Below, one piece after another: positions 3,552 to 27,024 of a stretch of 64,000 nucleotides of DNA; position 1 is the first letter of the stretch; each line of letters starts with the position of its first letter. The position numbers and the translations under genes were made by a program. The notes under the pieces are model-generated. The model did no database searches, was not told where the DNA came from, and worked only from the letters and a program-made list of their open reading frames with translations. The DNA is from Crassaminicella indica (GTDB lineage Bacteria; Bacillota; Clostridia; Peptostreptococcales; Thermotaleaceae): positions 496,001-560,000 of the forward strand of contig NZ_CP078093.1 of assembly GCF_019203185.1 (NCBI RefSeq), given 5' to 3'.

Positions 3552-3553
3552 AT

Positions 3554-4534: not shown

Positions 4535-4539
4535 ATCAC
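4535..4539. repeat. 5-bp target-site duplication, copy 1 (ATCAC)
   Basis: ATCAC directly abuts the transposon end that begins TGTA at 4540. The same five bases directly abut the opposite end at 27020-27024. A 5-bp duplication is the Tn7-family signature. Confidence 0.92.
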
Positions 4540-4687
4540 TGTAGGTTTAAAATAAAGTTTGATCAAAATATGCTCTAAAACCATTGAATCTTCGTCAAAC
4601 TTAAAGATAAATTTTAAAACAAAGTTTGATCATTATTCAGTTATCTAGAATTTATTAGATAATTATTTTTAAAACAAAGTTTGATCA
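4540..4687 (+). repeat. transposon left end: three spaced TnsB-type sites
   Basis: Three copies of AAAGTTTGATCA, each preceded by a TTTAAAA(T/C)A-type half, lie at 4554-4565, 4621-4632 and 4676-4687, pointing into the element. The first is fused to the TGTA terminus at 4540. The wide spacing (67 and 55 bp) contrasts with the packed repeats at the other end, as in Tn7. No gene lies between 4540 and the stop at 4821. Confidence 0.88.
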
Positions 4688-4820
4688 GAATAGCCTACTC
4701 ATTCTTATTTTCTTTCTATAGATTATATATATATTATTGATTTTTTTCTTCACCTATATTTCTATATTATATTCTGTAAAATCCATTTAAGCTATCTTTC
4801 AAAAACACTATTTTATTTAT

Positions 4821-6620
4821 TTAAGTCAATATTTCTTCACATTCCTTAATTTCCATTTCAATTTCTTTTTTTTCTTCGTCATTCTCAACTACACTTAATA
4901 CACTTTTGTTAATAGATAAAAAATACTCACATATTTCTTCTTTATATTCATTGCTGTTCAAATCTTTTTTTATTGCATCCTTAGTTTTTATACAATACTC
5001 ATATATTTTTCCACCACAATATCTTATATTCTCACAAATAGCTTTATACCATATTCTTCTCATCGAAATAGTCTTCTCCTCTTCTATATACTTTAAATAA
5101 ATTTCTATTAAGTTATCATGTACTCTTTCTCTAATTTCAAGAAATAATTTCATGACACTATCATCTCTATCTATGCGATAATATTCTATATAATTGAAGA
5201 TATTATTAATTTCTTTGCTATATGTGTCTATACATCTATCATCTTTAGGTTTTGCATTGCTATAATTTTCTATCATCTCATCTATTATTTGTGTCTTGAA
5301 AGCTTCATCAATATTTTCAATTAAGTAGTTAATAACATTTTTTATATATTTAAATTTAAATCTAAATTCTGTCTTCTCATTTATAAAGCATTCTTTAAAA
5401 ATTCCTTTAAAAATATATTTATTTGTTCTATTCTCTTTCATAGTCTGTATATAGTTTACGCACTCATCAGACCTCCCTTCTGCTGCTTGTAATATATTTC
5501 TACCCAACTCTTCTAATTTTTCACTATTTACTTTTTCTATTTCACTCATATCTAATTCTTTCAACGCTCTTACTGCAGGATTCTGATGAATATGCCAATC
5601 ATAACTTTTCAATTCTTTTATTATTCTATCTATTATTAAGTTTATTTCTATATCTTTTAAATTCAATCTATAAAATGGCATTTCAAAAATTGAATTTATA
5701 AACTTTTCTTTATTAATTTTCCCACGTAAATATCCACCTTTATATAGCATATTCAATCGCTCTATCCCTAAAGGTAAATAATATACTTTTTTATTATAAC
5801 CCACCCCATCTTCTTTTTGCATAAGTAATCTATTTACAATAGAATCTCTCATCTCTTGACTTGCAAATTGCCACAAATTAAAGTTTGTCAACAAAATTGC
5901 ACTACCTAAATCACTTATTGAAAAAGGTTTTATATTTTCTAATATTTCTTCATCCTCAAAAAAAGCATCCGAAAACCAAATCAATCTTCTAGTTACCCAC
6001 TGTCTTTCTGGTACATTAATTGTATCATTTAACTCTCTGGCTATCTGTTCAAATAATAACCTGTATGCTGATTTCTGTATTAGTTTTTTCCTTTTCTTAG
6101 CAAATTCATATACGCTGGCTTTATTATCATGTAAAAGGCTTTGTTCTGAACTCATCTTATCTATTAATTCTTTAACATATTCATGTCTTAACTTAAAGCT
6201 TTTTGACAACACTTCTTCAACCGCAATATTTAAAGCTGATACTAATTCAAACTGTTTAGGCTCTGCATTTCTAGGATGTGCATATACATGTCTCATTTCT
6301 CTTATATGCTGTATTCTTTTAATCGCAACTTCATTCAGAATATTTAATTTTTTAGCCTGTTGCATAATCATTTCATCTGTAGATTTATGATATTTCTCTT
6401 TGTCCTCAATATCATTTAATACTTTCAATGCTTGTCCATCATACTTAGACATATTTTTGATTTTCCCTTTAATTGATTCAGCAATACATATCCAAGTCAT
6501 TATATATGCCGCTCTATATGCTTTACTTCTAGTACATAGAATTATTTCATTCAACATTCTTCTATCATCTTCATCTAAAACTTTATTTTTTAATTCATCT
6601 AAATTACAAATATAATCCAT
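4821..6620 (-). CDS. HEPN-like domain protein, last gene of the defence cargo
   Basis: 599 residues, cytosolic, helical. Near residues 105-120 the sequence IREMRHVYAHP contains R-x4-H (RHVYAH), the signature of HEPN domains, many of which are metal-independent RNases in toxin and abortive-infection systems. The preceding helices (about residues 20-60 and 75-105) fit the usual four-helix HEPN layout. The remaining 480 residues are helical, rich in Lys, Glu and Ile, with no motif I recognise, perhaps a sensor or scaffold. It is the last gene before the transposon's left end, 134 bp after the SfsA-like gene on the same strand, so it may be a separate cargo gene or a late member of the DISARM-like operon. 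Known: HEPN RNases often accompany defence loci. Inferred: RNA cleavage here. Confidence 0.6.
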   Translation of the reverse strand: MDYICNLDELKNKVLDEDDRRMLNEIILCTRSKAYRAAYIMTWICIAESIKGKIKNMSKYDGQALKVLNDIEDKEKYHKSTDEMIMQQAKKLNILNEVAIKRIQHIREMRHVYAHPRNAEPKQFELVSALNIAVEEVLSKSFKLRHEYVKELIDKMSSEQSLLHDNKASVYEFAKKRKKLIQKSAYRLLFEQIARELNDTINVPERQWVTRRLIWFSDAFFEDEEILENIKPFSISDLGSAILLTNFNLWQFASQEMRDSIVNRLLMQKEDGVGYNKKVYYLPLGIERLNMLYKGGYLRGKINKEKFINSIFEMPFYRLNLKDIEINLIIDRIIKELKSYDWHIHQNPAVRALKELDMSEIEKVNSEKLEELGRNILQAAEGRSDECVNYIQTMKENRTNKYIFKGIFKECFINEKTEFRFKFKYIKNVINYLIENIDEAFKTQIIDEMIENYSNAKPKDDRCIDTYSKEINNIFNYIEYYRIDRDDSVMKLFLEIRERVHDNLIEIYLKYIEEEKTISMRRIWYKAICENIRYCGGKIYEYCIKTKDAIKKDLNSNEYKEEICEYFLSINKSVLSVVENDEEKKEIEMEIKECEEILT

Positions 6621-6754
6621 AGCCTATCTCTTCCCCTCTCGTATTCACTTTCTTTAATCTGCTAAAGAAATTTTCCTTCTCTATTATACCTTCTTGCTAT
6701 AAAAGTTTTAAACAAATAAAACATTCTTGATCTATTTCATTTTTCTTAATTCCT

Positions 6755-7471
6755 TTAAGCATTTATTTCTATCTCTTTATATAATTTAACCTCATTATTA
6801 CTGTAACAACTACTAAACGCCTTTATCTTCATTTCTTTTTTCATACATTTTTTTAATAGTTTAGAGTATTTTTCATCAAAGCTATTAATAGTTATGCTTT
6901 TTACAATAGGACTTAATGAAATGTAAAAATAATACACTTTATACCCACTTTTTAATAATTCTAATAATGCTCTTAGCTGATCAATGGCTCTTTGAGAAAA
7001 TACACTTGGAAATACAACATCCCTTCTAGCTGAAATAATACCTTTAGCTTCTACTACTACTTTTTCTTTTCCTTCTAACAAAAAATCTGCTTTATATCCA
7101 TTAACAAATTTTTCCTTATACAAATTTTCACATGAATGCTCATCTATTTTCTCGATAATATATTCTTCTACTAAATTGTTCACAATATTTAAATTCAGCA
7201 TAATGTATTTTCCATAGTATTCAACAGCAAACAAGCTATATTTAGTTCTTCTTTTTTTCCCTTTATTAAGTGTCAATAATACCTTTTTATTCTTTAATAT
7301 TAAATAATTTTCCAATCTAGATGCACTAGGCACATAACATTCTATTTCTTCATTGTTTATCAATACTTTACAAATGAATCTATTCTTGCTTTCATATAAA
7401 AATTTACCTTCAATTATTTTGCTACTAATCTTCAATACTTTATCTCCCTTAAAATATTTTTTGTAATTCAT
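6755..7471 (-). CDS. SfsA-like nuclease family protein
   Basis: 238 residues, about the usual SfsA length. An OB-like N-terminal half (ECYVPSASRLENYL, then KRRTKYSLFAVEYYGKYIML and NLNIVNNLVEEYI) aligns in order with SfsA. It is followed by the PD-(D/E)XK-type core: Asp in YKADFLLEGKEK, then VVVEAKGII with ExK, and the family's late segment VFPSVFSQRAIDQLRALLEL. SfsA was first named for a sugar-fermentation phenotype; the fold is that of a DNA/RNA nuclease. The gene starts 15 bp after the DrmC-like gene on the same strand, which suggests one transcript with the defence operon. SfsA is not a standard DISARM component. Divergent enough from housekeeping SfsA that its substrate may differ. Confidence 0.75.
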   Translation of the reverse strand: MNYKKYFKGDKVLKISSKIIEGKFLYESKNRFICKVLINNEEIECYVPSASRLENYLILKNKKVLLTLNKGKKRRTKYSLFAVEYYGKYIMLNLNIVNNLVEEYIIEKIDEHSCENLYKEKFVNGYKADFLLEGKEKVVVEAKGIISARRDVVFPSVFSQRAIDQLRALLELLKSGYKVYYFYISLSPIVKSITINSFDEKYSKLLKKCMKKEMKIKAFSSCYSNNEVKLYKEIEINA

Positions 7472-7486
7472 TTAATAGTAACGGTT

Positions 7487-8293
7487 TTATATTTCAAAAT
7501 TTTTCAAATCAATTTCATTAAATATTTCATTATAAATCCAATAATCTATAAGCTTTGTTAATGAATGAACCTGCTTTTTTTGTAATGGGATTCCTAGTTC
7601 AAATACGTTCTCCAATGCAACCTTACTAAAGTTAGCCGATCCCATATAGCCTTTATTATCATCAACCAGTACTAGCTTAGCATGAAATTTAAAGCTATCC
7701 TTCTTATCTTTATTTTTCGCTTGAAACAATCGCAGGTTATTATTGTCTATCTTATTAATTCTACTTAGCAAAAACTTAAATGCTTGTTTATTGCTATTTA
7801 TATTAATATCATTTGTAATAAAATCTATTGAAACTTCCCTTCTATTTTTCATTAAAGCTTCTATACTTATAAATAGCTTTTTAATTCCAGAAATCGTATA
7901 GTATGGCGAAAAAAATATTATTCTCTTTTCTGTAATCTGAATAAGGCGCTGTATCCAAATATTAAGATATATGTAATCCTTACATGCATCTTTAGGTGCA
8001 AAAGCTTCCTTTGGAGGAGTCCATAATAAGCTTTGTTGCTTTTCTCTATAAAAGCTATTGATATCAAGCTTTGTCATTTCATAAACTATTTCAAAATATC
8101 GCTGAAGTTCATTTTCTTTTAAAATTCTAAATATACTTTCCACCAGCCCACTATCGATATACTCATTGTTTAATTCAAGCCATTTTTCTAAAGTAAATCC
8201 TTTTTTACTATAGCACGCTCCTAAATATCTAAATATTCCAGCCCATTTCATTAATTGTTTCTCTAATCTATATTGATTAACTAATGCAATCAT
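7487..8293 (-). CDS. drmC: DrmC-like phospholipase D-family protein (DISARM)
   Basis: About 268 residues; a TTG five codons upstream (8308) is an alternative start just 3 bp after the DrmB stop. One clear PLD active-site motif near residue 200, FHAKLVLVDDNKGYMGSANFS, has His, Lys, Asp and GSxN in place. An earlier IIFFSPYYTISGIKKL segment matches the strand and helix preceding the HKD motif in the family. DISARM's DrmC is a single-HKD PLD protein of similar size, and the position after the DUF1998 gene is the expected one. A single HKD motif implies that the active site forms in a dimer, as in other small PLD nucleases. In characterised DISARM, DrmC is not always essential. The call rests on the motif plus gene order. 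Confidence 0.82.
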   Translation of the reverse strand: MIALVNQYRLEKQLMKWAGIFRYLGACYSKKGFTLEKWLELNNEYIDSGLVESIFRILKENELQRYFEIVYEMTKLDINSFYREKQQSLLWTPPKEAFAPKDACKDYIYLNIWIQRLIQITEKRIIFFSPYYTISGIKKLFISIEALMKNRREVSIDFITNDININSNKQAFKFLLSRINKIDNNNLRLFQAKNKDKKDSFKFHAKLVLVDDNKGYMGSANFSKVALENVFELGIPLQKKQVHSLTKLIDYWIYNEIFNEIDLKNFEI

Positions 8294-8311
8294 TTTAGAA
8301 TAATTCAACCT

Positions 8312-10234
8312 CTACACATCCCAGCTTTTAAGCATCTTATCTACTTCTATCGAATAGTACCCCTTGATAGCATAATTTTCTACCTCTCCACCATTTAATA
8401 AATTTCTACTTAAACCATGATTAAAATGTTGACATGAAAACTTTAAAAATAAACAAGCATGACATGCACCACTTTTTTCTTTGCATATTGGATCATACAA
8501 ACACGTTTGAGTCTTTTCATATGTATTCCTTAACCATCTAGCCAAATCATTTTCAAATGCAGCAATAAGTGCTCCCATACCACCACCTTGAAGCTTCGAT
8601 ACATATATAGCACCTGCCATACATGAAGGAAATAAATATTCTGACATACTATCTACATCCAGCCCTATGATCGATTTACCAGAATGAAATAGTACATGCA
8701 TAAAAGAATGTAACAATCGAAAAGTCAAAATAGAAGCCTTCATTCTATTATCATTCATATAGTCTTCTAATTTACATTTCGATAGATCTTCGTTAGAATT
8801 ATATGAAAAAACTAAATATTTATATAATATTGCATGCGCTTTAGCTTTTGTCATTTTTTTATTCATATCAATTGTTATAAGCTCATTTACCTTTAGCCAT
8901 GCTAATACTCTTAATGGATCTAGCTTAAATACAATCGCTTCATTTTCATTTTTAAATACAGGAATATGAATTTTATGCCTATTATTTTTAATCTTTTGTA
9001 CAAAAGGATTTAGAACAGCTTTAGAGCGATCGAAGCTTCTTCTTGTATAACCTATCCCCATTGTAATAACAGGAAATTTTTCAAATAGAGTTATGGTGTC
9101 AAGACCTAAATTCGTAGCTTCATCCTTTGCATTAATATAAGCAGTCTCTTGAATTGAATTATAGCTTTCTTGAGCTTCATTAAGCTTTTCATCCAATGTA
9201 CTTCCATTATTCTCATAACATGTATATAAAAATTCATGTAGAAGATTATCTTTTTTTATTAATTCTATTGGAACAGCTTGATCAAACAAACTCTGTATTT
9301 CATCCATCAAGTTCTTCTTTGAATCATTAGGTTGAATATTAGTTTCTTTTGCTAATTTCATTAACAGTTCTTTTTCTGCATTATTTTTAGCAGCTTCTAG
9401 CAATTTTCTTATTGTACTACTACTATCTTTTTCTAAAAAATTTTCATTATACCTTTCCTTATTAATTGAAGGCAATCCAAGTAATGCTCCAATTTGAACA
9501 TATGGAAAAATGTCTAATTCCTTTCTTTGGGACAATTTCTCATGCTCTAAATTAACAAAAGATAATAATGCTGGATAATAATTACTTCCATCTGCAATAT
9601 AAGATCCTCCTAAATAGTATTTATTATTATCTCTCATTGTTTTTGTTAAAGGTAAAGTTGTCCTTTTAGTACCCAAAGAACCAAGAGATTTTTTCTGTAT
9701 ATAATTATACCAAGTAGCCGTATCAAAGCGACGCGTATCTCTCATCCTTATACCCCTATATTTTTCTTCCCAAGTTTTCTTACCTTTATTTGTTTTAACA
9801 TTTAAAGCTTGTATATCTCCATTTAAATGTACTAAAGCATAAGGATACTGCTTCAGCTTGCCTTGACCACAAAATTTACATTTTAATTGAGGATTCCTTC
9901 TTTTTAATTCCTCGAGACTCTTATATTCATGTACATTTCCACATGCTTCATTATCACATTTGAATACTAAAGGAAATAATTCAAATTTAATTTCCTCCAC
10001 TTCTCCAAAGCAATACATATCATCTCTTTTTGGATATAAATCATTCTTTAAGTCATTGTTTATTATCCAATTATCTACAAAGCTATAAACATTTTGTAAC
10101 AAATGCTCAGTATTTTCATTTAATTCTTTCATTTTCATATCTGTAACTATGTACCATATTTTAGAATCAGCAAATAATGCTCCTGGTAAATATCTAAACA
10201 TTACTTGACTTGTTCCTCGTTTAAGACTTGGCAT
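8312..10234 (-). CDS. drmB: DrmB-like DUF1998 protein (DISARM)
   Basis: About 640 residues. The start is ATG 10234, or the GTG at 10240 that overlaps the stop of the helicase gene, pointing to translational coupling. Near residues 95-130 a pair of Cys clusters (CDNEACGNVHEY, then LKCKFCGQGKL) looks like a zinc ribbon. The last third carries the DUF1998 hallmark: RLLHSFMHVLFHSGKS, then a glycine stretch KLQGGGMGALI and a Cys-rich end (CLYDPICKEK, CHACLFLKFSCQHFNHGLSR). DrmB works with DrmA as the core DISARM complex on DNA. The gene lies exactly between the helicase and the PLD gene, the diagnostic drmA-drmB-drmC order. No truncation is evident. Confidence 0.87.
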   Translation of the reverse strand: MPSLKRGTSQVMFRYLPGALFADSKIWYIVTDMKMKELNENTEHLLQNVYSFVDNWIINNDLKNDLYPKRDDMYCFGEVEEIKFELFPLVFKCDNEACGNVHEYKSLEELKRRNPQLKCKFCGQGKLKQYPYALVHLNGDIQALNVKTNKGKKTWEEKYRGIRMRDTRRFDTATWYNYIQKKSLGSLGTKRTTLPLTKTMRDNNKYYLGGSYIADGSNYYPALLSFVNLEHEKLSQRKELDIFPYVQIGALLGLPSINKERYNENFLEKDSSSTIRKLLEAAKNNAEKELLMKLAKETNIQPNDSKKNLMDEIQSLFDQAVPIELIKKDNLLHEFLYTCYENNGSTLDEKLNEAQESYNSIQETAYINAKDEATNLGLDTITLFEKFPVITMGIGYTRRSFDRSKAVLNPFVQKIKNNRHKIHIPVFKNENEAIVFKLDPLRVLAWLKVNELITIDMNKKMTKAKAHAILYKYLVFSYNSNEDLSKCKLEDYMNDNRMKASILTFRLLHSFMHVLFHSGKSIIGLDVDSMSEYLFPSCMAGAIYVSKLQGGGMGALIAAFENDLARWLRNTYEKTQTCLYDPICKEKSGACHACLFLKFSCQHFNHGLSRNLLNGGEVENYAIKGYYSIEVDKMLKSWDV

Positions 10235-10236
10235 TA

Positions 10237-13200
10237 TCACTCACTTCCTTCTTTTTTGTTAAACTCATCAAAAGCAAATCTTAAAATATAATCCGTTTCA
10301 AAGTTTGACTGTAGGGTTAAACCTTCTTCAATATCTCTAAAGCTTGTTATTGGATTAAGTACATTTTCATCCTTTATCTTCATTGTTGATGGTTGCTTAT
10401 TTAAAATATAAATTTTATCTTGAAAAGCTTTTTCAATAGCTTTTTCAGCCTTTTCCCGTGCTACAATTGAGAATAAATCACTATCTACTCCAATAATTCT
10501 TTTTAAAGACTCTAATAGCTCATCTTCAATACGATTTCCTTTTGTATTTTGATCTGCTATATATTTTTGATATTGTCCACAGTTATAAAGAGTATACTTA
10601 TGTCTTTGCGAATGAACACAATATAGTAAACCTGCTAATAATCCAGATATACTTCTTTCAATAGCTTTAATCGCAAATCTATTAATAGGTACTGGGTCCA
10701 CTAATCGATCTAAAAATATATGGTTTTGAATAAAAAACTCATATTGAGACCTTTCTCTCAAATCATTAGCCCTAAAGCTAACAAGTACTAAGCCTGTATG
10801 TGATCTAGAAGAACGACTACTAGCCTGAATATATTCCGCATACTTCGATGGCATACCTGCCATAAAGAAAGCATTGATTCGCTCTAAATCTACACCATGA
10901 CTAATTAAACTAGTTGCTATTAAAGTATGCAACTTATTTTTATACTTCATATAACTTCCATCCGCTTCAATTTTATCAATAACCTTCACGATTTTATCCA
11001 TTTCATTATCGCCAGTTAATATCTCTGTATGCATATCAAAATCTAAATTTATATTTTTCTTCAAATCCAAATATACAGACTCATCCAGTCTTCGTTTCAC
11101 ATCATGTCCCATAGCTTTTTTGTTAACATATACTACTGAAAGGTCATAGTTTGATATAAATTCAAAAAATTCTTTTTCATCTTTAATACTTTCTAAGCAT
11201 ATTTTTTTCCAAGAATTCTTTGCCTGTGAGTATAGTCTCAAAATTTCTTTATGGTAAAGATATAAACATCTTCCTATTACTTCGTCTTGTGACCGAGCAT
11301 GAGAAAGAACACCCATATATAAACGTCTTTTTATAATAGGCTTACTCGTAGCATAAAAGGATTCTCCATTTTTAAAGCCCATTGAAGGATATTTCCTAGC
11401 GCGCCTTAAATACAAATGCTTTACATGCTTTTCATAAGCTTCAATAGTAGCTGTTGCAGCAATTATTTTAGGTAAATGAAATTTTTCTCTTCCAAACAAC
11501 CGAGAGCACTCATTAAGCATTCCTTCATAATGTCCATTTAAAACCCCTAGTTCCTCCTTCAATAAATGTAACTCATCCTGAATTAATAATGATGGTATAG
11601 GATCATAAAATACATTTTTCTTATGCTCTTCTAACTGAGCTTTGTATAATTTTGTTTCTTTTGCTTTAGCATCACATGCCCCATATTCATCATAGGTTCC
11701 AACAATACATCTATCTGAAAAATAACCATGCTTCTTGCAGAAGCCTCCTACTTGTCCAAAAATATGAGAAAACTCTCTATATCTACCAAGAATTGCAAGC
11801 TTATCTACAGTACCACATAAAACACTAGGTACAAATCTATATACTTCGGAATCTGTCATATATAATGGTAATTTCCCTTTCAAGCTACTTTTATAGACAA
11901 AGCAATCTTTATTAGTGCAAACATGCATAAATTTCCAATAATCATTATCAAACTCTAGTGTCAAATCTTTATTACACATAGGACATTTGTGAATCATCAT
12001 CCTCTTTTTCTTATTAATTTCATTTCTCATATATTCTGTTACTTTTCTTTTATTGACAAAATTATCTGTATTACTTCCACCTGCAAAAAAACCTATAGAA
12101 AATGGATCTCCTTTTTCTAATAATTCATTAGAAGTTTGCCTGTATTTTTCTGCATAAATTAATATTTTAGCTAGTCTATCCAACTGGTTTTTTGATAGCA
12201 TTCTTAGCGGAAATCTTATCCATGCTGTACATCCTCTTTTTTTGCCTCTTAATCTATCATAAAATAAGGCACATATAATCAATCCAAAATATGCTTCTGT
12301 TTTTCCTCCTCCTGTAGGAAACCATAGCACATCTGCATAGCTAGCAGATTCCTTTATTTCTTTACTTAAAATGTCTTTTTCTGGTAATTCTCTAACCAAT
12401 AAGCTGGGTAATATTCTAACCACAAAAACAATCTGAAATAGTCTCCATGATGAATATTTACTAGCTTCACTAAAAATCTTATTCATAATATTGAAAGCTA
12501 ACATTAGTCTATCGTCTCTTTCCAATGTATAAATACCTAACTCAAAAGACTCTATCTCTTTTTCAAAAGCTTCCATATCTTTTATACAGCTTTCTACCTC
12601 TTCCTTTGTATTTAATTGCTGTTCCTTGTCCCCATTATTATTTATGAAAGCTTGCCAATTACTTGAATATTTCTTCATTTCCAATGCAATTTGCTTTAAT
12701 ACTTTAATTGTATTTTGTTTATCAGCTAAATCATCAAATTTAACCGCTAGGTCTTCACGAGTTCTATAATGATTCTGAAAATACGAGGGCACCGTCTCTG
12801 TCGATAGTATTATATGATTCTTAATTTCTTCAGATATACCAACGCAATTTATCCCTTTAACTTTATATTTTTTATCATATTTATAATCCTTTGGTGCTCC
12901 ATCAAATTCAAAATATCTATGTATATTTTTATCGACTTTTACTGATAAATTACAATCAAAAAATTCTAAAGGATGCCCAGTTGGTTTTTCTTTTCCAGAA
13001 ATATCCACTTTAGGTGTCTTATTAATTAAAGAAACAACTATTTTAAATAGTGTTTTTCCAGATCTATCTTTATATGTTATTGGATCTATAACAATTTCTG
13101 CGTTCCATTCTGGTATATTAAAATTTTCATCCTTTATATTACTTATCATTTTATTAAATTCATCTTCACTATTTGGTACTTCATAAATAGGTACAAAGCC

Positions 13201-13842
13201 TCTAGCATTTATAAAGCTTTCTTTAATAGAAAAAAAATCCTTCATATCCACCTTGCTTTTAAACTGATCTATTATTATATCTTTAAGTAAAAAACTTTCT
13301 TTCTTAAGATTTTTTGTATTTATCTCAAAGTAATAGTCTTCTACTTCTATTTTCACTTGTCTATATTTCTCTAACAGCATTAAGCCCTTATCTTTTTTTA
13401 TGTTGCTAATATTATTTTCAGAATCCATCATATTGAATTCATCACTATTTAGCTCTATATCCTCCTCTTTATTCAAATATTCAAGTGTTTTTCGTTGTTC
13501 TTCATAGCTTGGGAAATATCTTGGATATAAATTAAAAGAAAAGCTTAGATATCCACTTATCTTTTCTTCCATTGGTTCAACTAAAAATTCCAACCCTAAA
13601 TTAACATTTTTAAAAAGGTTAACTCTTTGTATTTGAAAATCTACCTTATTCTCTTCATTAATATCATTGTTGAATTCTGAATCTGAAAATAATACTCCAG
13701 AGAAAAAACGTCTTGTAGGTTCTTCTCCAATAACTTCTATTTCATTTCTTCCTAAAAGCCCATCTTTTATGACATTATGTAAATGCTTTACTATTTTTAC
13801 CTCGTCATTAATTCTTTTTTCTACTTTTTCATTTTTCATCAT
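10237..13842 (-). CDS. drmA: DrmA-like SF2 helicase (DISARM)
   Basis: 1201 residues. After a 500-residue N-terminal region, Walker A reads LWFPTGGGKTEAYFGL (about residue 507). A zinc-binding pair follows near 620 (HKCPMCNKDL, then HVCTNKDC). The DExH box is LLIQDELHLLKEE (about 755), motif III IIAATATIEAYE, and the C-terminal helicase lobe has LIATSLISHGVDLERI followed by QASSRSSRSHTGL (about 1007), matching motifs V and VI. This is the layout of DrmA, the ATP-dependent motor of DISARM that binds unmethylated incoming DNA. The start MMKNEKVEK has AAGGGG about 10 bp upstream. It overlaps the preceding DrmE-like gene by 14 bp and abuts drmB by stop-start overlap, so the three are co-translated. 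Confidence 0.87.
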   Translation of the reverse strand: MMKNEKVEKRINDEVKIVKHLHNVIKDGLLGRNEIEVIGEEPTRRFFSGVLFSDSEFNNDINEENKVDFQIQRVNLFKNVNLGLEFLVEPMEEKISGYLSFSFNLYPRYFPSYEEQRKTLEYLNKEEDIELNSDEFNMMDSENNISNIKKDKGLMLLEKYRQVKIEVEDYYFEINTKNLKKESFLLKDIIIDQFKSKVDMKDFFSIKESFINARGFVPIYEVPNSEDEFNKMISNIKDENFNIPEWNAEIVIDPITYKDRSGKTLFKIVVSLINKTPKVDISGKEKPTGHPLEFFDCNLSVKVDKNIHRYFEFDGAPKDYKYDKKYKVKGINCVGISEEIKNHIILSTETVPSYFQNHYRTREDLAVKFDDLADKQNTIKVLKQIALEMKKYSSNWQAFINNNGDKEQQLNTKEEVESCIKDMEAFEKEIESFELGIYTLERDDRLMLAFNIMNKIFSEASKYSSWRLFQIVFVVRILPSLLVRELPEKDILSKEIKESASYADVLWFPTGGGKTEAYFGLIICALFYDRLRGKKRGCTAWIRFPLRMLSKNQLDRLAKILIYAEKYRQTSNELLEKGDPFSIGFFAGGSNTDNFVNKRKVTEYMRNEINKKKRMMIHKCPMCNKDLTLEFDNDYWKFMHVCTNKDCFVYKSSLKGKLPLYMTDSEVYRFVPSVLCGTVDKLAILGRYREFSHIFGQVGGFCKKHGYFSDRCIVGTYDEYGACDAKAKETKLYKAQLEEHKKNVFYDPIPSLLIQDELHLLKEELGVLNGHYEGMLNECSRLFGREKFHLPKIIAATATIEAYEKHVKHLYLRRARKYPSMGFKNGESFYATSKPIIKRRLYMGVLSHARSQDEVIGRCLYLYHKEILRLYSQAKNSWKKICLESIKDEKEFFEFISNYDLSVVYVNKKAMGHDVKRRLDESVYLDLKKNINLDFDMHTEILTGDNEMDKIVKVIDKIEADGSYMKYKNKLHTLIATSLISHGVDLERINAFFMAGMPSKYAEYIQASSRSSRSHTGLVLVSFRANDLRERSQYEFFIQNHIFLDRLVDPVPINRFAIKAIERSISGLLAGLLYCVHSQRHKYTLYNCGQYQKYIADQNTKGNRIEDELLESLKRIIGVDSDLFSIVAREKAEKAIEKAFQDKIYILNKQPSTMKIKDENVLNPITSFRDIEEGLTLQSNFETDYILRFAFDEFNKKEGSE

Positions 13843-16603
13843 ATTTCAATAACCCCTTTTTTTTAATCAGATGATAATTGTCTTTGCTAATTACCTTTTC
13901 TAAAATTGCAGAATGCACTAAATATTCCTTTTCGTATTCAAGCTGCTGCACTTCTAGTAATTCTAATACTTCTAATACATCTTGAGTACTTATATAAATA
14001 TCCTTTCCTAGACTAATCCATTCATTGGTATTAATTGTAATATTTGATGAAATATTATTTACTTGGTTCATTATAATTTTTCCTAGAGCTTTGCCTAATT
14101 TGATATATATCCCCCACAGCTCTTTCATTGCCTTGTAAATAGATTTAATACGCCTAGTATAATATTCATCCTTTAAAATTTTTGCTATGGCATATAAATT
14201 TTTTTCATCTCTTACTAACGACACTTTTCCTTCTATCCAATTGCCAATTGTTAAAACTGAAGAAATGTTTCCACCATATGCATTAATTTCTTCTAGTATC
14301 CTTTGATAAATAGCACTTTTACTTTGATATGAACTATAAAATTTCTTCCAAATTAATTTCATCATATCTTGCCATTCATTTACATTAAGCTCAATCCATT
14401 TCATTACTAATGTATTCGATGCCATATTTAAAAGCTCATCAAATATCTCCCTACGTTCCTTTTGCTTGAGCCTTATTAGAATGTCACCTCTTTTAAATTC
14501 AAAAGGTCCTATACTATCAACTTCATCTTTATCAAACCTTTTTACTCTAAATGCTTTATCCCTTGAGACAAATATTAATTGCTCTTCAATCCTTCCTTTT
14601 TTTTCATTTAATTTATTCACATGTAGCTTTACACATGATATATACTCATACCTTTTTTCTGCATAGCTTGTAATATCATAGCTTATCTGCTCACAAATAT
14701 TCATATCTATTTCTTCATCTAATTCATCTTCCATAAGGTTAAATAGCTTTTCATCTTCAAATAATTTATCTATTTTGTCTATTGGCGAATTTTCTTTTTT
14801 TTCATTCTTATACTGCTGCGTTACTTTATAATCTACAATACTTATGGATGTTTTATTATTTTTAGGTACTGTATCCCATATTTTGCTTTCTACTTTAAAT
14901 AAATTATTGAAGGCATTTTTTAAATATTTCACAAAACTTTTATTAAAAACCATATTGATTTGGTAATCAATAATCTTTTTTTCATAAAATCCACATACAA
15001 TATAAAACTTTGTTTTTGCTAAAAAATAAAATGAGCTTAGATATTTTTTATTCCACGGATTTGTTAATATAATAATACTTGGAGCATTATCCTCTTGGTT
15101 AAATATTTCTCTTATTTGTTTTCTTGCCCAATCTGATTGAGTTATGACTTCAATTCTAGATAAGTCTTTCGTACTTAAATATAAAGAAGCTCTTAACCAT
15201 AGTTTATATTCTTGAGCTACTAATTTCTCCCCTACAATAATAGTAATTTTATTTCTGTTAGAAACATTAGCCCTAACGATATTAGAAATAACCTCTCCTC
15301 GAGGACTACCTTCCTTCTTATAGTAGTACTCATATATTTCAAGTATTTTATGCTTTAAATGGGGCATCATAAATTTTTTTATGGTTTCTTCTTCTAAAGT
15401 ATCCGTTGGTATTTTTTCACAAGCATTAATTAATTGTCTTAAAGTAGCCTTTCCCTCTGCTAATCTAGTTCTTTCATACCATACTAAGGGTAAAGGCAAT
15501 GATACTAACTTAATCAACATATCTTTCATTCGCTTAAAGCCTTTACTTAGATTACCTTTTTTAGTATATGATCTCTTTAAAATAATGAAGGCATCTCTTA
15601 TTTTATTTTTCACCTTATTTGCTTCAATGATGTTGTAAATTTTAATATTCGACTCAGCTTTATCTAAATAAGGCAATGAAGCTTGGATATTCCACGATGC
15701 TGTTATGGAATTAGTCTTGAAGCATTCTTTTTTTACAAAAAAATTATTGAAGAGATAGATAGAATTTTGATTTACTGGAATGATATTATTGAAAGTAGCT
15801 ATTGCTTTATATGTTGATTGATCAAAATTAGGAGCTATTGCAATCACATGTTTAGAATGCTCCTGTGCCCATTTTATAATTTGTTCAGCCCTCCCCCTAT
15901 GTCTATAAGGTACTAAATCCACAATGATTACATCTGCCTCTTTCTTAATTTCCTCTGGAAGATTTTTTCTATATGCTCTATATAAAGCAATCCATGGTAA
16001 TGTTCCATCATCTTTGTTTTTTATTTTGCTATTTTCCCTTTTATTGTTAAAGGAAAACTTCTTAAACGTATTTGCTTCAATTGTGTATATATTAAAAAAA
16101 TCCCTTAAAAAATTTCCGTTTATACTGGTTCTCCAAATATGTGATAGCAATTCAATATTATCAGATATTATTAATATCCCTGAACCCACACTGAATTTGT
16201 ATTCATTATTCGATAACAAGCTACTAACTAAATGCTGTAGGATTAGATGATAGGACAATAATAGTGGAAACGCATATGAAAAAGGAGGCATAATAAAAGC
16301 AATATTCCCCTCATGTTTATTATTTTTTGAAAGCATATATGCTTTTAATGATACTGTTAATATAATATTGTCTATCTCATTTAAATTAACTTTAGCTTGT
16401 TTAGATTGAAAATTGATATTATTTATACTTTCAAATAAACAATACTTCTCATGGCTTAACATTCCTCTCCCTAAATCTTCATTTGATAAATCTATTAAAT
16501 TTTTAAAGTACAATTCATGTATCTCTTTATTCACCTGCAAGGATTCTGGAATTATACTACTAAGTGCTTGCTTTTTTCTTTGCTCTGATAATTGTCCATA
16601 CAA
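13829..16603 (-). CDS. DrmE-like DISARM protein
   Basis: About 924 residues if translation begins at TTG 16603, which has GGAGG 8-9 bp upstream; ATG 16627 and TTG 16642 extend the same frame but lack a ribosome-binding site. The N-terminal half resembles a degenerate helicase-like fold with no intact Walker A (GNIAFIMPPFSYAFPLLLS, VIIVDLVPYRHRGRAEQI). Near the C-terminus, an ISSVLTIGNWIEGKVSLVRD segment followed by a long helix (RRIKSIYKAMKELWGIYIKL) fits the end of class 2 DISARM DrmE proteins. DrmE has no assigned biochemical role. The position immediately ahead of drmA, with a 14-bp overlap, supports the call. The alternative, DrmD of class 1, is unlikely because DrmD is an SNF2 helicase with intact motifs, absent here. 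Confidence 0.62.
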   Translation of the reverse strand: MYGQLSEQRKKQALSSIIPESLQVNKEIHELYFKNLIDLSNEDLGRGMLSHEKYCLFESINNINFQSKQAKVNLNEIDNIILTVSLKAYMLSKNNKHEGNIAFIMPPFSYAFPLLLSYHLILQHLVSSLLSNNEYKFSVGSGILIISDNIELLSHIWRTSINGNFLRDFFNIYTIEANTFKKFSFNNKRENSKIKNKDDGTLPWIALYRAYRKNLPEEIKKEADVIIVDLVPYRHRGRAEQIIKWAQEHSKHVIAIAPNFDQSTYKAIATFNNIIPVNQNSIYLFNNFFVKKECFKTNSITASWNIQASLPYLDKAESNIKIYNIIEANKVKNKIRDAFIILKRSYTKKGNLSKGFKRMKDMLIKLVSLPLPLVWYERTRLAEGKATLRQLINACEKIPTDTLEEETIKKFMMPHLKHKILEIYEYYYKKEGSPRGEVISNIVRANVSNRNKITIIVGEKLVAQEYKLWLRASLYLSTKDLSRIEVITQSDWARKQIREIFNQEDNAPSIIILTNPWNKKYLSSFYFLAKTKFYIVCGFYEKKIIDYQINMVFNKSFVKYLKNAFNNLFKVESKIWDTVPKNNKTSISIVDYKVTQQYKNEKKENSPIDKIDKLFEDEKLFNLMEDELDEEIDMNICEQISYDITSYAEKRYEYISCVKLHVNKLNEKKGRIEEQLIFVSRDKAFRVKRFDKDEVDSIGPFEFKRGDILIRLKQKERREIFDELLNMASNTLVMKWIELNVNEWQDMMKLIWKKFYSSYQSKSAIYQRILEEINAYGGNISSVLTIGNWIEGKVSLVRDEKNLYAIAKILKDEYYTRRIKSIYKAMKELWGIYIKLGKALGKIIMNQVNNISSNITINTNEWISLGKDIYISTQDVLEVLELLEVQQLEYEKEYLVHSAILEKVISKDNYHLIKKKGLLKYDEK

Positions 16604-16878
16604 AACAAAAACCTCCAAAGGTTGCATTTTATTAGAATACAAACGTATTTATAATGTTTATTATTTCGACATTTGAAATAGAATCCCCTTCATATTTTTA
16701 CATATTTAATCATAATATGTATTTTTTACATGTTACTGTTTCTATATGAAATACATTCATTCTTAAAATCATTGAATTTCCTTTTAATAATGTAACAGTC
16801 ATATATTCATTAATAAGCTTATACCCAATAATTATTATATTTTGAAACATTGGCTCAATAATGTTTATCTAATTATAA

Positions 16879-16914
16879 AAGCTAATTAAGAAGATTCCAC
16901 TTCCTAATTAGCTT
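16879..16914 (-). terminator. terminator-like stem at the methyltransferase stop codon
   Basis: Arms AAGCTAATTA and TAATTAGCTT form a 10-bp stem, followed on the minus strand by TTATAATTAG. It begins at the methyltransferase stop codon (16913-16915). The tail is not a pure T-run, so efficiency is uncertain. Together with the roughly 310-bp gap up to the DrmE-like start it suggests that the methyltransferase and the drmE-drmA-drmB-drmC genes are separate transcripts. The rest of the gap (16604-16878) is AT-rich with no gene and no clear promoter that I can single out. Confidence 0.5.
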
Positions 16915-18178
16915 ATTCATAAAAATATTTAAAATTTTTCTTAATCTGGGCCTTTGTCGTAAATTTTGGTTTTCTTGGTTCCCCCTTAGATATAATTAAT
17001 ATCCTATCAACCTTAGTTGCTTCTCCCTTTCTTTCCTGCCCCCAAATTTTAGTAACCTTGTTATTGCCTTCTATTTTATCCTCTATAATCTCAACAAGCT
17101 GCAAATTAGTATATGGCTCTACATATTCCCAAACTTCTTCAGCTAGCTTTAACTCCTCCACATCTCCTATTACTATACAGGCTAATGCACCTGGCTTTAA
17201 TATTCGTTCCCAGCCACATATCAAATTCCTCATAAATATTAAATATTCCTCTAGCTTTAAACGATCTGATAATTTTATATTCGAGCCTTCTTCATAAGCT
17301 TTGTTTATTTTCAGCTGATCATCTACCATATCAAAATCTTTACCCAACATCCAAAGTCGTATCCAATTATATTTTCCATATCGAATTAATTTTAAATATG
17401 GAGGACTAGTTACAATTAAATCTATAGCTTCATCCTTTAATATTCTTCTATAGTTATTAATTTTTAAAGCATCATATTGATAGCTTTTACCTTTTCTTAA
17501 AGCCCTGTTCCATGGATATGTTTTAGCTATTCTATCTCTTAATAATTCAAATACATTTTGTTGTAATTTTACTAAATTATTTTCGGCTATATATTTTCTA
17601 ACATAATTAGGTGACATAGAAAAGGTATTGGGCATAGATATTGATAAATACATAGATGTGCCATCCTTTCTATGCTTGCCATGCATTATACCAAGCAAAA
17701 TAGCCATAATATATCGATCTATTTTCCTACGTATATCTAATTCATTCTTTAAGTATAACAGCATAGGCAATGTTACTTCCTCGTCATATAACATTCTTAT
17801 ATCAGGGTCAATCCTTAGAATACTCTCTCTAGAAATATATGTATTATTAAAATTTTCTTCTAATTCACATAACCGACGCATTATATTTTCATATTTAGGA
17901 ATATAGGTTTTAGCTCCAGTAAGAACACAAGCTAAAGGATTTAAATCATTACCAATTCCTACTCTATTATTTAAAGCAGCTTCTAAAACAGTTGTACCTC
18001 TGCCTGAAAAGGGATCATATACCTTTTCACCTTCCTCCGTAAATTGCTTTATAAAATAGTTTGGTAAAGAAGGGGGAAACATAGCTAAGTACGAGCAAAT
18101 ATTATGTGCTGGATTTTTCCACTTTTTTTTATTTGTTTTCCATATTGGCTTCAACCAAGCACGTTGCTTTCGAGCCAT
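16913..18178 (-). CDS. amino-methyltransferase (N4-cytosine or N6-adenine DNA methylase) of the DISARM-like locus
   Basis: 421 residues. The N-terminal region HNICSYLAMFPPSLPNYFI leads into motif I, VYDPFSGRGTTVLEAA (about residues 55-70), the AdoMet site. The catalytic motif IV is IVTSPPYLKLIRYG (about residue 260). The order, motif I before motif IV, is the alpha-like layout; TSPPY is most common in N4-cytosine and some N6-adenine enzymes. It would modify host DNA so that the DrmA-DrmB complex spares it. Characterised class 2 DISARM uses a C5-cytosine methylase and class 1 a much larger adenine methylase, so this small amino-methylase is atypical. It is divergent from the small gene at 18326 and ends in a terminator-like stem 310 bp ahead of the DrmE-like gene. 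The family is secure; base specificity is not. Confidence 0.85.
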   Translation of the reverse strand: MARKQRAWLKPIWKTNKKKWKNPAHNICSYLAMFPPSLPNYFIKQFTEEGEKVYDPFSGRGTTVLEAALNNRVGIGNDLNPLACVLTGAKTYIPKYENIMRRLCELEENFNNTYISRESILRIDPDIRMLYDEEVTLPMLLYLKNELDIRRKIDRYIMAILLGIMHGKHRKDGTSMYLSISMPNTFSMSPNYVRKYIAENNLVKLQQNVFELLRDRIAKTYPWNRALRKGKSYQYDALKINNYRRILKDEAIDLIVTSPPYLKLIRYGKYNWIRLWMLGKDFDMVDDQLKINKAYEEGSNIKLSDRLKLEEYLIFMRNLICGWERILKPGALACIVIGDVEELKLAEEVWEYVEPYTNLQLVEIIEDKIEGNNKVTKIWGQERKGEATKVDRILIISKGEPRKPKFTTKAQIKKNFKYFYE

Positions 18179-18200
18179 AAAATCAACCCCTTAAATTTAA

Positions 18201-18761: not shown

Positions 18762-20243
18762 CTAACTATTTTCTATAATTTTCTCATATATATACTCACA
18801 CTTATCGTATATACTACTTTTATCATACTTATGCCTAATTCTCTTAGAAAATATACCTTTTCCTTCTAATTTCTTCAAGCCTTGTGAGTCCCAAGTACCA
18901 TTTTTATTCACTAGCCCAAGAATTACTTTTAAATATACATTTCCCCAATTTATTGCTTTCACTGCATATAATAATAGTATAGATAAAGACCTTTCTTCTC
19001 TTTCTACTTCTAGCAAGCTAATTTCTTTTCCATTATTCATTGTTATCTTTCCTACTACATATTGTCTCTTTGTTTTTCCATCATGAAGCTTAGAAAATTT
19101 CTTACCTTTCTTTCCTTCTGGTAAAGCATTTATCATAACCTGGACATCTTTAATATTTGGTTTACTCTTTAATAGCTTCATAATCTCAATAAATTCTTCT
19201 AGCTCACCTTCTACACTTATATCATCTACGCTTTTATACTCTAATCCCCTAGCTCTGTCAATTCCCCCAGTATCCGCTGTAGTTCTTAAAGCTTCATTTT
19301 CGATTTCATAAAGCTTAGTATTTTCATCTTCATTGTCTCTAACATAGCTTTCTCCAATCTTTACTCTATTGATTTTACTATCCTTTGAGTAAGCATGCTT
19401 TATATTAGATGTTTCAACAAAATCTGACTCCGAATTTTTCGATCCATCTACTTTAGGATCTAATTTCTTATCATCCGTTTCCTTTAATGCTCTGTATTTT
19501 CTTTTTTTAGGTTGGTTGATTTTTCTAATATGCTTAATATATTTTGAACTTATAAATATCTCTTGTGCATTGATTTCCTTTTCCCTAAATTCCATGATTT
19601 CTAGAATTCTTATAATATGCTTCTTCTTTCTTATTCTCGCTTTAATATTAAAGCGATTAAATAAAAAATCAAAGCTTATATTTTCCTTTAACCATAGCTT
19701 CATTCCTACTTGATTAAACATTTTAAGTATACTCTCATTAGTTATGATCCAAGCTAAATGCTTCACATATTCTGTATTTAATAGCTTTCTCTCATATTCA
19801 TCAAAAAAATTTATATGTAAATTTCTTTGTTTATCATAGCTGTAAATAAAGTATTTATCAAGAGAGTCTAATTCAACAATTCTATTGAGTAAAAATCTAT
19901 TTGTAGCAATAATAGCTCTTATAATCTCTAATGCAGGAATTCTATATTCAACCTGGTCTTTGTGTCCCACAAATATTTTTGTAGGAATGTCTTTTTTGCT
20001 TCCTTCAGCTTCTAGTTCTAAAAAGTCTTCTACTATTTCAAATGCAATATCACTTAAATCTAAATCAATAATAGTAGCATCCTTTTTAATCTCACTATTG
20101 TTGATATTCCCATCCTTATAATATCTCCCAAAGGCTAAAAAATGGATAGTTGCCCAATCAAAAGTAATTTTTTTAATTTCCTTGTATCCCTTAAAATATA
20201 CATCTAGCATCCATTTATTGTTGAGCTTATAGGGCTTATCCAT
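18762..20243 (-). CDS. tnsE: TnsE-like transposition targeting protein
   Basis: From ATG 20243 the protein has 493 residues; Tn7 TnsE has about 540. YRIPALEIIRAI near residue 95 matches the equivalent YHIP segment of Tn7 TnsE. The C-terminal domain has LPEGKKGKKFSKLHDGKTKR followed by KEISLLEVEREERSLSILLL, the conserved DNA- and clamp-binding region. A low-complexity linker (about 245-320) separates the two. TnsE directs insertion into replicating conjugal plasmids. Oddly, the same frame continues upstream for about 24 codons with convincing coding sequence (IIVKNWPFQQGEKVKLYW) but no ATG, GTG or TTG, and ATG 20243 lacks a well-spaced ribosome-binding site. The true N-terminus may use a rare start or be reached by frameshifting from tnsD (see the G7 run). 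Confidence 0.85.
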   Translation of the reverse strand: MDKPYKLNNKWMLDVYFKGYKEIKKITFDWATIHFLAFGRYYKDGNINNSEIKKDATIIDLDLSDIAFEIVEDFLELEAEGSKKDIPTKIFVGHKDQVEYRIPALEIIRAIIATNRFLLNRIVELDSLDKYFIYSYDKQRNLHINFFDEYERKLLNTEYVKHLAWIITNESILKMFNQVGMKLWLKENISFDFLFNRFNIKARIRKKKHIIRILEIMEFREKEINAQEIFISSKYIKHIRKINQPKKRKYRALKETDDKKLDPKVDGSKNSESDFVETSNIKHAYSKDSKINRVKIGESYVRDNEDENTKLYEIENEALRTTADTGGIDRARGLEYKSVDDISVEGELEEFIEIMKLLKSKPNIKDVQVMINALPEGKKGKKFSKLHDGKTKRQYVVGKITMNNGKEISLLEVEREERSLSILLLYAVKAINWGNVYLKVILGLVNKNGTWDSQGLKKLEGKGIFSKRIRHKYDKSSIYDKCEYIYEKIIENS

Positions 20244-20317: not shown

Positions 20318-22198
20318 TTATCCCCCCCTATTTATGTATGCTTCTAAGCTGTCCTTGATTTTATTAAAAGCCTTCGTTCTAATCCCTGCTAGTCTTTGGA
20401 TTTCCCATAATCGAACAGGCTCTTTTCTAGCTATTTTTTCATCTATTATTTTCTTGGATCTCCTTATTTGAAAGTCCGTTACGCTTTCCAAAATACTATC
20501 TAAAAATTCCTTTGTTTTTGGTAGCTTATCTAAATTTTTTTCAAGAGTAGGAAGAATACCTAACATTTTTCCTATATTAGATTTTGTGATTCTTATAGGC
20601 TTTTGGCTTGCTAATAGCTTCCTATGAGCTTCTTTTACAGCTTCTACTATTTCTGTATCTCTTACATCCCAAGCTACTCTTTGATCACTTTTATAATCAA
20701 TCTCCTGCTTATTCATCTTCTTTGGAAGGTTTGAAAAAAGCCATTCCTTTTCATGACTATATAAATAAGAGTACTCCTTCTGACATAGTCTTCTAATTTG
20801 CGTTCTTGAAAGACTTGGCTGCTCTCTTATGGTACCTATAATCTTATCCTTATATGCTTGTATATCAATTTCTTTTCCCTGAGCTTTATTAACTTTTACT
20901 TCCTTTACAATTGCTTTAGAGCCTTCAAAATAGTTAAGCCCTAATTTTTTATCAAAATTTTTTATTGTTTTAGGATCACACTTCATTAATCTAGCCACTT
21001 CTCTTAATCCATACTTTTCTTCTTTTAGATATGCTTTGAGTTTATTTTCCCATACATGTCCAAAGGCTTTAATTCTTCCCACCCTATATCGATCTTCTTC
21101 AAATTGATCTGGTCCTTTTCTAGAGTAAACAAAGCCACAAGTACAAGAAAAGGTTCCTACTGGCAGCCTAGTTTTATAATCAGCAGTTATTTTCAAATTG
21201 GTAACAACATCCTTTTTATAATGCTCTGCAACAGGATTCAAGCATGGCCAGGGACTTTCGCCAAAGGGAGAATAGCCTTCTTCCTTTGACTTGAAAAAAT
21301 GTTTTATATCCTCAGTTAGAAAATCGATAAAAAGTATATGTCTTATAGGATGTACTGTTCTTTTACTGTTTCTTGAAATGACCTTCAACCAATTATATTC
21401 ATCGTCCTGATCTATATCGGATTCAAGCTTATTTAGTAGCTCCTTTCCATAAAACCAAATAAACGCATTGTATAGCTTCTTTTGCTGTATTGTCTTATTG
21501 ACCGATAAAAAACCCTTTTTATCAAGAAGCTCTTTATACTTCTTTGCTACAAACTCTTTATCAAATGCTGCTAGATCATTATCTAGTAAATAACGTGCAG
21601 CTTGAGCTATTTTCACTAATTCTTTATCAATAGCTTTTCTTTCTATATCCAGCTCTAGTAACTTTTCATCTAGTCTTATAAATTCAATTCTACTTGCTTT
21701 TGTTTTATCTATTTTATATTTCTTTAGCTTTACTTCATGCTCAGGGCAAACAAACACCCCTTGGACTTGATGTATTCTGTGGATATAGGCTTCTCCATAT
21801 TTCTTTATCTCTTTCTGCGAGCATAGTGGACAATAATATATACCTTCTTTCTTGCATATACCTCCTGCTACCATACCAAGCCTTGTATAAATACCTTGTC
21901 CATCCTCAAATTTCATGGTATTTATTAAAGTATTTTTCCTTTCCTTTGGTAAAAACGGAGCATAAAAAGGAAAAAGTGTATGGTTTTTTATAAGGTAATC
22001 TGACGTATATTTTTTCCCTAGCTGCTTTGCTAAATGCTCTAGCTTGCATGGTAAATATAAGCTTGGGATAACACTATCCCTACCAAATAATTCTCTTAAG
22101 GTATCCTTGTAATCAATATTACCTATATAGTAGTGATACCTAGCTATAGCTCCATATAATAATTCATCTTCATGGGGGTCGGTGAAAAATGTAAGCAT
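20318..22198 (-). CDS. tnsD: TnsD/TniQ-family attTn7-binding protein
   Basis: 626 residues. The opening MLTFFTDPHEDELLYGAIAR is the TniQ/TnsD start. A zinc finger with C123-x2-C126 and C151-x2-H154 (YYCPLCSQ, then VFVCPEHEV) matches the CCCH finger of Tn7 TnsD. The later part has helix-turn-helix-like segments (LREVARLMKCDPKTIKNFDK; SRTQIRRLCQKEYSYLY) for sequence-specific binding. TnsD recognises the 3' end of glmS and recruits TnsC; the element's position 20 bp past glmS agrees with this. It starts 3 bp after tnsC ends and finishes on seven consecutive G (minus strand) just before its stop codon, which is unusual in such AT-rich DNA. Confidence 0.93.
   Translation of the reverse strand: MLTFFTDPHEDELLYGAIARYHYYIGNIDYKDTLRELFGRDSVIPSLYLPCKLEHLAKQLGKKYTSDYLIKNHTLFPFYAPFLPKERKNTLINTMKFEDGQGIYTRLGMVAGGICKKEGIYYCPLCSQKEIKKYGEAYIHRIHQVQGVFVCPEHEVKLKKYKIDKTKASRIEFIRLDEKLLELDIERKAIDKELVKIAQAARYLLDNDLAAFDKEFVAKKYKELLDKKGFLSVNKTIQQKKLYNAFIWFYGKELLNKLESDIDQDDEYNWLKVISRNSKRTVHPIRHILFIDFLTEDIKHFFKSKEEGYSPFGESPWPCLNPVAEHYKKDVVTNLKITADYKTRLPVGTFSCTCGFVYSRKGPDQFEEDRYRVGRIKAFGHVWENKLKAYLKEEKYGLREVARLMKCDPKTIKNFDKKLGLNYFEGSKAIVKEVKVNKAQGKEIDIQAYKDKIIGTIREQPSLSRTQIRRLCQKEYSYLYSHEKEWLFSNLPKKMNKQEIDYKSDQRVAWDVRDTEIVEAVKEAHRKLLASQKPIRITKSNIGKMLGILPTLEKNLDKLPKTKEFLDSILESVTDFQIRRSKKIIDEKIARKEPVRLWEIQRLAGIRTKAFNKIKDSLEAYINRGG
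20322..20328 (-). other. G7 run at the end of tnsD: possible frameshift or slippage site
   Basis: On the minus strand the last tnsD codons read AGG GGG GGA TAA. A -1 slip on the seven G, or one extra G in the transcript, gives AGG GGG GGG ATA AGC and continues without a stop directly into the tnsE frame. Direct observation of sequence; programmed slippage is inference. Confidence 0.5.
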
Positions 22199-26889: not shown

Positions 26890-26933
26890 AAAATCACCTC
26901 TTTGCATTTATTCTAACACAAAGAGGTGATTTT
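26890..26933 (-). promoter_or_regulatory. RBS-sequestering hairpin with an extended -10 in its loop, tnsA leader
   Basis: Perfect 15-bp arms (CAAAGAGGTGATTTT at 26919-26933 and its complement at 26890-26904) with a 14-base loop. The arm nearer tnsA contains its GAGGTGA. The stem is followed on the minus strand by TTCTTT, so it may also terminate transcription. The loop (26905-26918) contains TGTTAGAAT, an extended -10; a transcript starting there would lack the first arm and leave the ribosome-binding site free. Read-through RNA from glmS would include both arms. Confidence 0.65.
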
Positions 26934-26937
26934 AATT

Positions 26938-27019: not shown

Positions 27020-27024
27020 ATCAC
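27020..27024. repeat. 5-bp target-site duplication, copy 2 (ATCAC)
   Basis: ATCAC directly follows the transposon terminus, 20 bp from the glmS stop codon, matching 4535-4539. Confidence 0.92.

Follow-up and report, generated by a model that had tools for sequence, protein, structure and literature searches.

A distant DISARM relative on a Tn7-like transposon of Crassaminicella indica, and a candidate exchange of its motor genes

A Tn7-like element beyond glmS

The window analyzed here, a 64,000-nucleotide stretch of the Crassaminicella indica genome (contig NZ_CP078093.1, positions 496,001 to 560,000), contains a complete Tn7-like transposon at positions 4540–27019 (22,480 bp, minus strand). 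Its cargo comprises a divergent gene for a 107-residue protein, an amino-methyltransferase gene, drmE, drmA, drmB, drmC, a gene of the sfsA family, and a gene for a 599-residue HEPN-like protein (Table 1). The left terminus, TGTAGGTTTAAAATAAAGTTTGA, has its first base at 4540, and the right terminus, TGTATTCGTACAATAAAGTTTGA on the reverse strand, its last base at 27019. Because ATCAC flanks both ends and the stop codon of glmS lies at 27045, with the element 25 bp beyond that gene, the insertion occupies the usual attTn7 place. These ends, defined here by sequence, were absent from the initial annotation, whose suggestion of an apparently complete Tn7-like element is borne out by the TnsABCDE set, the matched termini, and the duplication.

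The features by which the Tn7 family is recognized—TnsABC, TnsD/TniQ, TnsE, paired ends, a 5-bp duplication, and the attTn7 location—are all present. Like Tn7, the element has five tns genes, TGT ends, the 5-bp duplication, and an insertion point about 25 bp past glmS; unlike Tn7, it resides in a low-GC host and carries DISARM-type cargo. DISARM goes unnamed among Tn7 cargo in the Benler 2021 survey (PMC8649781).

Table 1. Features of the element, in window coordinates. The sister element is the one carried by G443, a genome of the same genus.
Feature	Position	Strand	Evidence
Left target-site duplication ATCAC	4535..4539	.	Sequence; same as 27020-27024
Left end of Tn7-like element	4540..4700	.	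TnsB-site-like repeats AAA(T/C)AAAGTTTGATC
HEPN-like protein, 599 residues	4821..6620	-	PADLOC PD-T7-3 4e-11, residues 5-168 only; RHVYAH
SfsA-family PD-(D/E)XK nuclease, defense-type subfamily (predicted)	6755..7471	-	Pfam PF03749 6e-16; SfsA_N 1.5e-10
DrmC, phospholipase D-like nuclease	7487..8308	-	PADLOC 5e-13; Pfam PLDc_2 4.5e-9
DrmB (DUF1998/MZB)	8312..10240	-	PADLOC DrmB 9e-36
DrmA, YprA-like SF2 helicase	10237..13842	-	PADLOC DrmA 2e-116; NCBIfam 6e-109
DrmE, 937 residues	13829..16642	-	NCBIfam DrmE_fam 8.6e-69; Pfam DrmE_C 1.4e-14
Terminator-like hairpin at methyltransferase 3' end	16879..16914	-	Homology with sister element ends at hairpin
Amino-methyltransferase (N6A or N4C), 421 residues	16913..18178	-	Pfam N6_N4_Mtase 5e-20
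Divergent gene, 107 residues	18326..18649	+	96% nucleotide identity in sister element
TnsE	18762..20243	-	Pfam TnsE_C 1.5e-16; 87% amino acid identity in G443
TniQ/TnsD	20318..22198	-	Assigned by order; kept in sister tns set
TnsC	22202..23899	-	Assigned by order and ATPase motif; kept in sister tns set
TnsB	23877..26039	-	Assigned by order; kept in sister tns set
TnsA	26036..26884	-	Assigned by order; kept in sister tns set
Right end of element	26930..27019	.	Four TnsB-site-like repeats
Right target-site duplication ATCAC	27020..27024	.	21-25 bp past glmS stop

The DISARM-type core and its methyltransferase

The core of a DISARM system is recognizable in the cargo: a YprA-like helicase and a DUF1998 protein are encoded by separate, adjacent genes, and the phospholipase D-like nuclease DrmC follows DrmB. 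That DrmA (with its DELH box), DrmB, and a single-HKD DrmC stand in the diagnostic order had been proposed from the letters alone, and PADLOC matches and motifs confirm it, with every gene named there lying at its stated position on the minus strand. DrmA retains GGGKT, DELH, ATATI, and YIQASSR and matches the solved DrmA structure 7s9v (3e-49), while the one HKD motif of DrmC reads HAKLVLVDDNKGYMGSAN. The upstream protein, described earlier as DrmE-like and 924 residues long, proves to be a true DrmE, at 232.7 bits against a DrmE_fam cut-off of 80 and with a DrmE_C match besides; counted from its TTG start, it is 937 residues long. The curated NCBIfam DISARM cut-offs are missed by the remaining three proteins (DrmA, 365.6 against 950; DrmB, 53.4 against 240; DrmC, 51.5 against 133), which by homology belong with DISARM and stand outside the curated families. 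Since PADLOC models and 7s9v are matched and the DrmE cut-off is passed, while those for DrmA, DrmB, and DrmC are not, the set is, judged by sequence, a real but distant relative of DISARM.

Modeling offers a likely identity for DrmE. A model built from 36 sequences, with a predicted local distance difference test score (pLDDT) of 79, retrieved RIG-I/MDA5-type SF2 helicases and FANCM in Foldseek (best E value 7e-9, probability 1.00, with TM of only 0.15–0.39), and a motif check found neither a Walker A motif nor a DEAD box in the protein. Its fold is probably that of a catalytically dead two-RecA helicase, and DrmE would therefore act as a structural or DNA-binding partner.

The single methyltransferase of the cargo is of the PF01555 amino type, with DPFSGRGT preceding TSPPY. 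A 421-residue TSPPY amino-methylase beside DrmE, with no C5-methylase, is what the initial annotation had described, and the Pfam match and motifs agree. The divergent 107-residue gene has no Pfam match; by eye only, its product is ribbon-helix-helix-like, and it is a possible regulator. From drmE to drmC the genes overlap or lie 3 nucleotides apart, and sfsA begins 15 nucleotides after drmC. The hairpin after the methyltransferase gene and a 134-nucleotide gap between sfsA and the HEPN gene make three transcription units likely: the methyltransferase, drmE-A-B-C-sfsA, and the HEPN gene. The last, which is probably transcribed separately, has a promoter-like site at 6712–6683, although such sites are weak evidence here, with predictions no more numerous than in shuffled sequence.

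How unusual is this combination? About 100 related drm loci were compiled. An alignment-based scan across 84,980 species genomes supplied the best 80 out of 575 relatives, and viral contigs supplied a further 19; in the latter a search with a single DrmA protein was uninformative, owing to poor patterns, and an alignment was used instead. Searches with DrmA against phages and with DrmE against plasmids (tblastn) returned no match. A profile for DrmE, built up from the window protein and the three relatives nearest to it, extends as far as canonical class 2 DrmE (E about 1e-140), placing DrmE in 57 of the related loci, mostly directly upstream of drmA. Four kinds of methylase accompany drmE in these loci: C5, PF01555 (the window, L037, and L039), DUF1156-like, and Eco57I/N6_Mtase. 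L085, L102, L103, and L115 of a proteobacterial and acidobacterial DrmA clade show the last of these pairings.

In a DrmA tree (FastTree, with long branches, so that support at deep forks is to be taken cautiously), the window falls in a clade of 20 with L038, L037, L039, and 16 others (local support 97), and the class 1 and class 2 DISARM references fall in another. An amino-methyltransferase is present in the locus in 18 of the 20, a C5-methylase in none; L038, one of the two members in which the former was not found, is cut off by a contig end. DrmE with an amino-methyltransferase is, on this phylogenetic count, a widespread lineage and not a one-off. The earlier verdict that the set fits neither DISARM class stands for the two-class scheme. 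Many uncharacterized DISARM-like classes have been reported (Bell et al. 2025; PMC12458937), and this pairing is described nowhere in the literature searched, which lacked most subscription journals.

Set beside class 2 (DrmMII, DrmE, DrmA, DrmB, DrmC), the window shares the DrmE-A-B-C order and a DrmE above the family cut-off, but it has an amino-methyltransferase and lacks the C5-cytosine methylase DrmMII, its DrmE is only 18–23% identical to three canonical proteins, and its DrmA lies in another clade. With class 1 (DrmD, DrmMI, DrmA, DrmB, DrmC) it has in common DrmA, DrmB, DrmC, and exocyclic amino-methyltransferase chemistry, yet its 421-residue PF01555 enzyme is not the large adenine methylase DrmMI, DrmE is present, and no SNF2-like DrmD lies inside 4540–27019. 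Uncharacterized DISARM-like systems with drmE and DUF1156-like or Eco57I-type methyltransferases share the drmE-A-B-C order and an amino-methyltransferase and, for the DUF1156 type, the DrmA clade; these differ in methyltransferase family and lack SfsA, HEPN, and TnsABCDE. ARMADA/Druantia-type YprA systems have helicase fusions, with either DUF1998 or a C-terminal nuclease as the partner (PMC12458937), whereas here the genes are separate.

A second DISARM-like set accompanies tnsABC on a plasmid of Streptomyces cellulosae (L015, 4128–20051), and S. poonensis (L044, 3535–19447) has the entire 15.9-kb block at 96% identity. This is apparently an independent capture by a Tn7-like element, whose exact ends were sought and not fixed.

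The sister element and the accessory genes

The same transposon is present in G443. Nucleotide identity is 96% for tnsA and tnsB, 95% for tnsC, 94% for tniQ, 91% for tnsE, 96% for the 107-residue gene, and 91% for the methyltransferase gene (93% at the protein level), as against 88% for chromosomal glmS; this excess of the element genes over glmS suggests horizontal spread. The G443 copy measures 18,128 bp and is bounded by the duplication TTTAT (L160 and L161 of contig C24, concatenated positions 14176–32303). It interrupts tniQ in a second Tn7-like element, one adjacent to glmS, and when its flanks are rejoined, one open frame of 639 codons results. With that copy in the tniQ of a resident element, the same element lineage is, from these junctions, placed at two different sites. 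The G443 arrangement is also an example of one Tn7-like element interrupting the targeting gene of another.

Homology between the two elements ends at the hairpin after the methyltransferase gene; beyond it, only sfsA (85%) and then the left end (91%) align once more. Between methyltransferase and sfsA, G443 has HerA (DUF87, 1e-14; PADLOC HerA, 7e-20) and NurA (PF09376, 1.5e-4) and no drm genes, and the window DrmE finds no match in G443. The comparison presents itself as an exchange, DrmEABC for HerA-NurA, between the same methyltransferase and the same SfsA. The methyltransferase has further relatives on a Deferribacter desulfuricans megaplasmid (46%; order methyltransferase-HerA-NurA, with herA interrupted by an insertion sequence) and on a Halorarius halobius plasmid (31%; order HerA-NurA-methyltransferase); an alignment of the family recovered only generic phage methylases from viral contigs. 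Since the methyltransferase family adjoins HerA-NurA on both plasmids, the simplest history probably has HerA-NurA as the earlier partner, with DrmEABC taking its place here. The Deferribacter, Halorarius, and G443 systems share the methyltransferase family with the window and, in G443, the SfsA and the transposon as well, but their motor is HerA-NurA, not DrmEABC. HerA-NurA also occurs on two cyanobacterial plasmids (L259 and L260; HerA 48% identical to that of the sister element), preceded by a small helix-turn-helix gene and lacking an adjacent methylase.

The SfsA-like protein was credited at the outset with a PD-(D/E)XK core, and this is upheld: it scores 58.9 bits against the Pfam SfsA RE domain (cut-off 22.8), matches structure 4da2, and carries D129 and E141-x-K143, with the D and ExK invariant in all five aligned subfamily members. 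Against the NCBIfam equivalog for housekeeping SfsA it reaches 81.1, short of the 126.45 cut-off. Housekeeping SfsA occurs in 151 of 291 genomes of the class and, among the matches listed, is at most 33% identical to the window protein, whereas a nearer subfamily scores 130–158 bits. Members of this subfamily lie directly behind a large protein in three genomes (L170, L171, L172) and two viral contigs (L256, L258). Scanning the large proteins of L171 and L172 identified an SspH-like FtsK/HerA ATPase, encoded in an operon of DruA/SspF-SspH type; the large proteins of L256 and L258 match it (phmmer), and that of L170 is assigned from nothing more than its length, its position, and the likeness of its first residues. 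On the prophage-like contig L257 (5778–8663), SfsA directly follows a 690-residue PF01555-type methylase.

The invariant catalytic residues, together with this recurrence behind SspH-like ATPases and a methyltransferase, make the subfamily look like a defense nuclease joined to differing systems. A stray housekeeping copy was considered and rejected, as the genome encodes no other SfsA and the protein falls below the housekeeping cut-off, and has its closest kin in defense operons. The SspFGH-like operons resemble the window in having the same SfsA subfamily directly behind a large motor ATPase, but they are, by family name, of phosphorothioate type and lack drm genes. Two side observations follow: SfsA may be an unrecorded component of DruA/SspF-SspH-like systems in the five ATPase loci, and the L257 genes are perhaps a minimal restriction-modification pair.

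The HEPN-like protein does contain the R-x4-H motif ascribed to it, as RHVYAH; its match to PD-T7-3, a family listed as HEPN (PMC10952713), is confined to the region given in Table 1. Searches of the class and of plasmids turned up only fragmentary relatives, and a fold model made without an alignment (pLDDT 47) was too poor for use. The gene is absent from the sister element, where PDC-M45 genes and a RES gene take its place after sfsA. We infer a separate passenger, an independent RNase-type defense gene.

Genes at 1503–4198 lie outside the element. Just beyond its left end are a weakly matching NucS-like nuclease gene (1503–2597) and part of a gene of the Rpn family (3554–4198) in which GIQQ units are repeated. 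Far to the right, a 442-residue open frame (60882–62210) occupies an AT-rich stretch between GC-rich blocks, one at 49–60 kb with tRNA genes and one from about 62.8 kb.

A proposed motor swap behind one methyltransferase

We lean, by a little over even chances, toward reading the cargo as a module-swapped DISARM-type restriction system on an intact Tn7-like transposon at attTn7. In such a system the amino-methyltransferase would mark host DNA, and DrmA-DrmB, with DrmE as a noncatalytic, helicase-like partner, would load onto DNA lacking the mark (phage or plasmid ends) and translocate, exposing it to degradation by DrmC and probably also by SfsA as an accessory nuclease. In the sister element, HerA-NurA would supply motor and nuclease behind the same mark. 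DrmAB is known to be autoinhibited and opened by 5'-overhang DNA, with its ATPase activity lowered by methylation (PMC9142583). The stronger version, a composite system in which methyltransferase and SfsA are fixed and the motor (DrmEABC or HerA-NurA) is exchangeable, is put forward more tentatively. Several points count against the swap and the shared mark. There is one sister element only, so that the exchange is read from two elements and distant relatives; the methyltransferase gene has its own terminator-like hairpin, and may therefore be expressed apart from drmE; and DISARM is reported to restrict phages that lack methylation targets (PMC9142583), so that DrmEABC might work without the mark. 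SfsA might serve the methyltransferase alone.

One alternative we regard as rather unlikely: two systems side by side, with methyltransferase and SfsA as a restriction-modification pair in which SfsA cuts, and DrmEABC as a self-contained anti-phage insert that makes no use of the mark. The pair does stay together in the sister element, L257 has an amino-methyltransferase followed directly by the same SfsA subfamily, and homology with the sister stops at the methyltransferase 3' hairpin. Yet an amino-methyltransferase of one type or another is present in the locus in L037, L039, and 15 others of the DrmA clade, from which DrmEABC probably needs one, and the window enzyme is the sole candidate in the cargo; moreover, SfsA sits just behind drmC, and in five other loci it follows an SspH-like ATPase rather than a methyltransferase. 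The proposal of the initial annotation, a plain DISARM in which SfsA and HEPN would be genuine additional subunits, draws on the tight, same-strand run of drmE-A-B-C-sfsA. It fares worse, and we think it improbable: neither gene occurs in any of the roughly 100 related drm loci (single-sequence searches for both, and an SfsA profile), the very outcome that the initial annotation had named as refuting it, SfsA accompanies the methyltransferase in the drm-less sister element and turns up in other defense operons, and the HEPN gene is set off by its gap and has no sister counterpart. That the genes are decaying passengers with no working defense is very hard to credit, given that all eight reading frames are open, enzyme motifs are kept, both termini of the element are intact, and a sister species has this element lineage at another site.

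The two classes of DISARM are defined by their methylases, and the drmE lineages assembled here pair with at least four methylase families. A Tn7 vehicle is shown for DISARM-type systems, DrmE gains a likely identity as a catalytically dead SF2 helicase fold, and the locus points to a defense-type family of SfsA nucleases. Because methyltransferase and one nuclease are common to sister elements with quite different machinery between them, the comparison suggests that defense machinery can be swapped around a common self-marking enzyme. With the motor apparently exchanged behind an unchanged methylase within one transposon lineage, the question whether one mark protects against two unrelated motors becomes directly testable. 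If the reading is correct, a single methylation mark would be read by DNA motors unrelated to each other, with DISARM as just one of several plug-ins.

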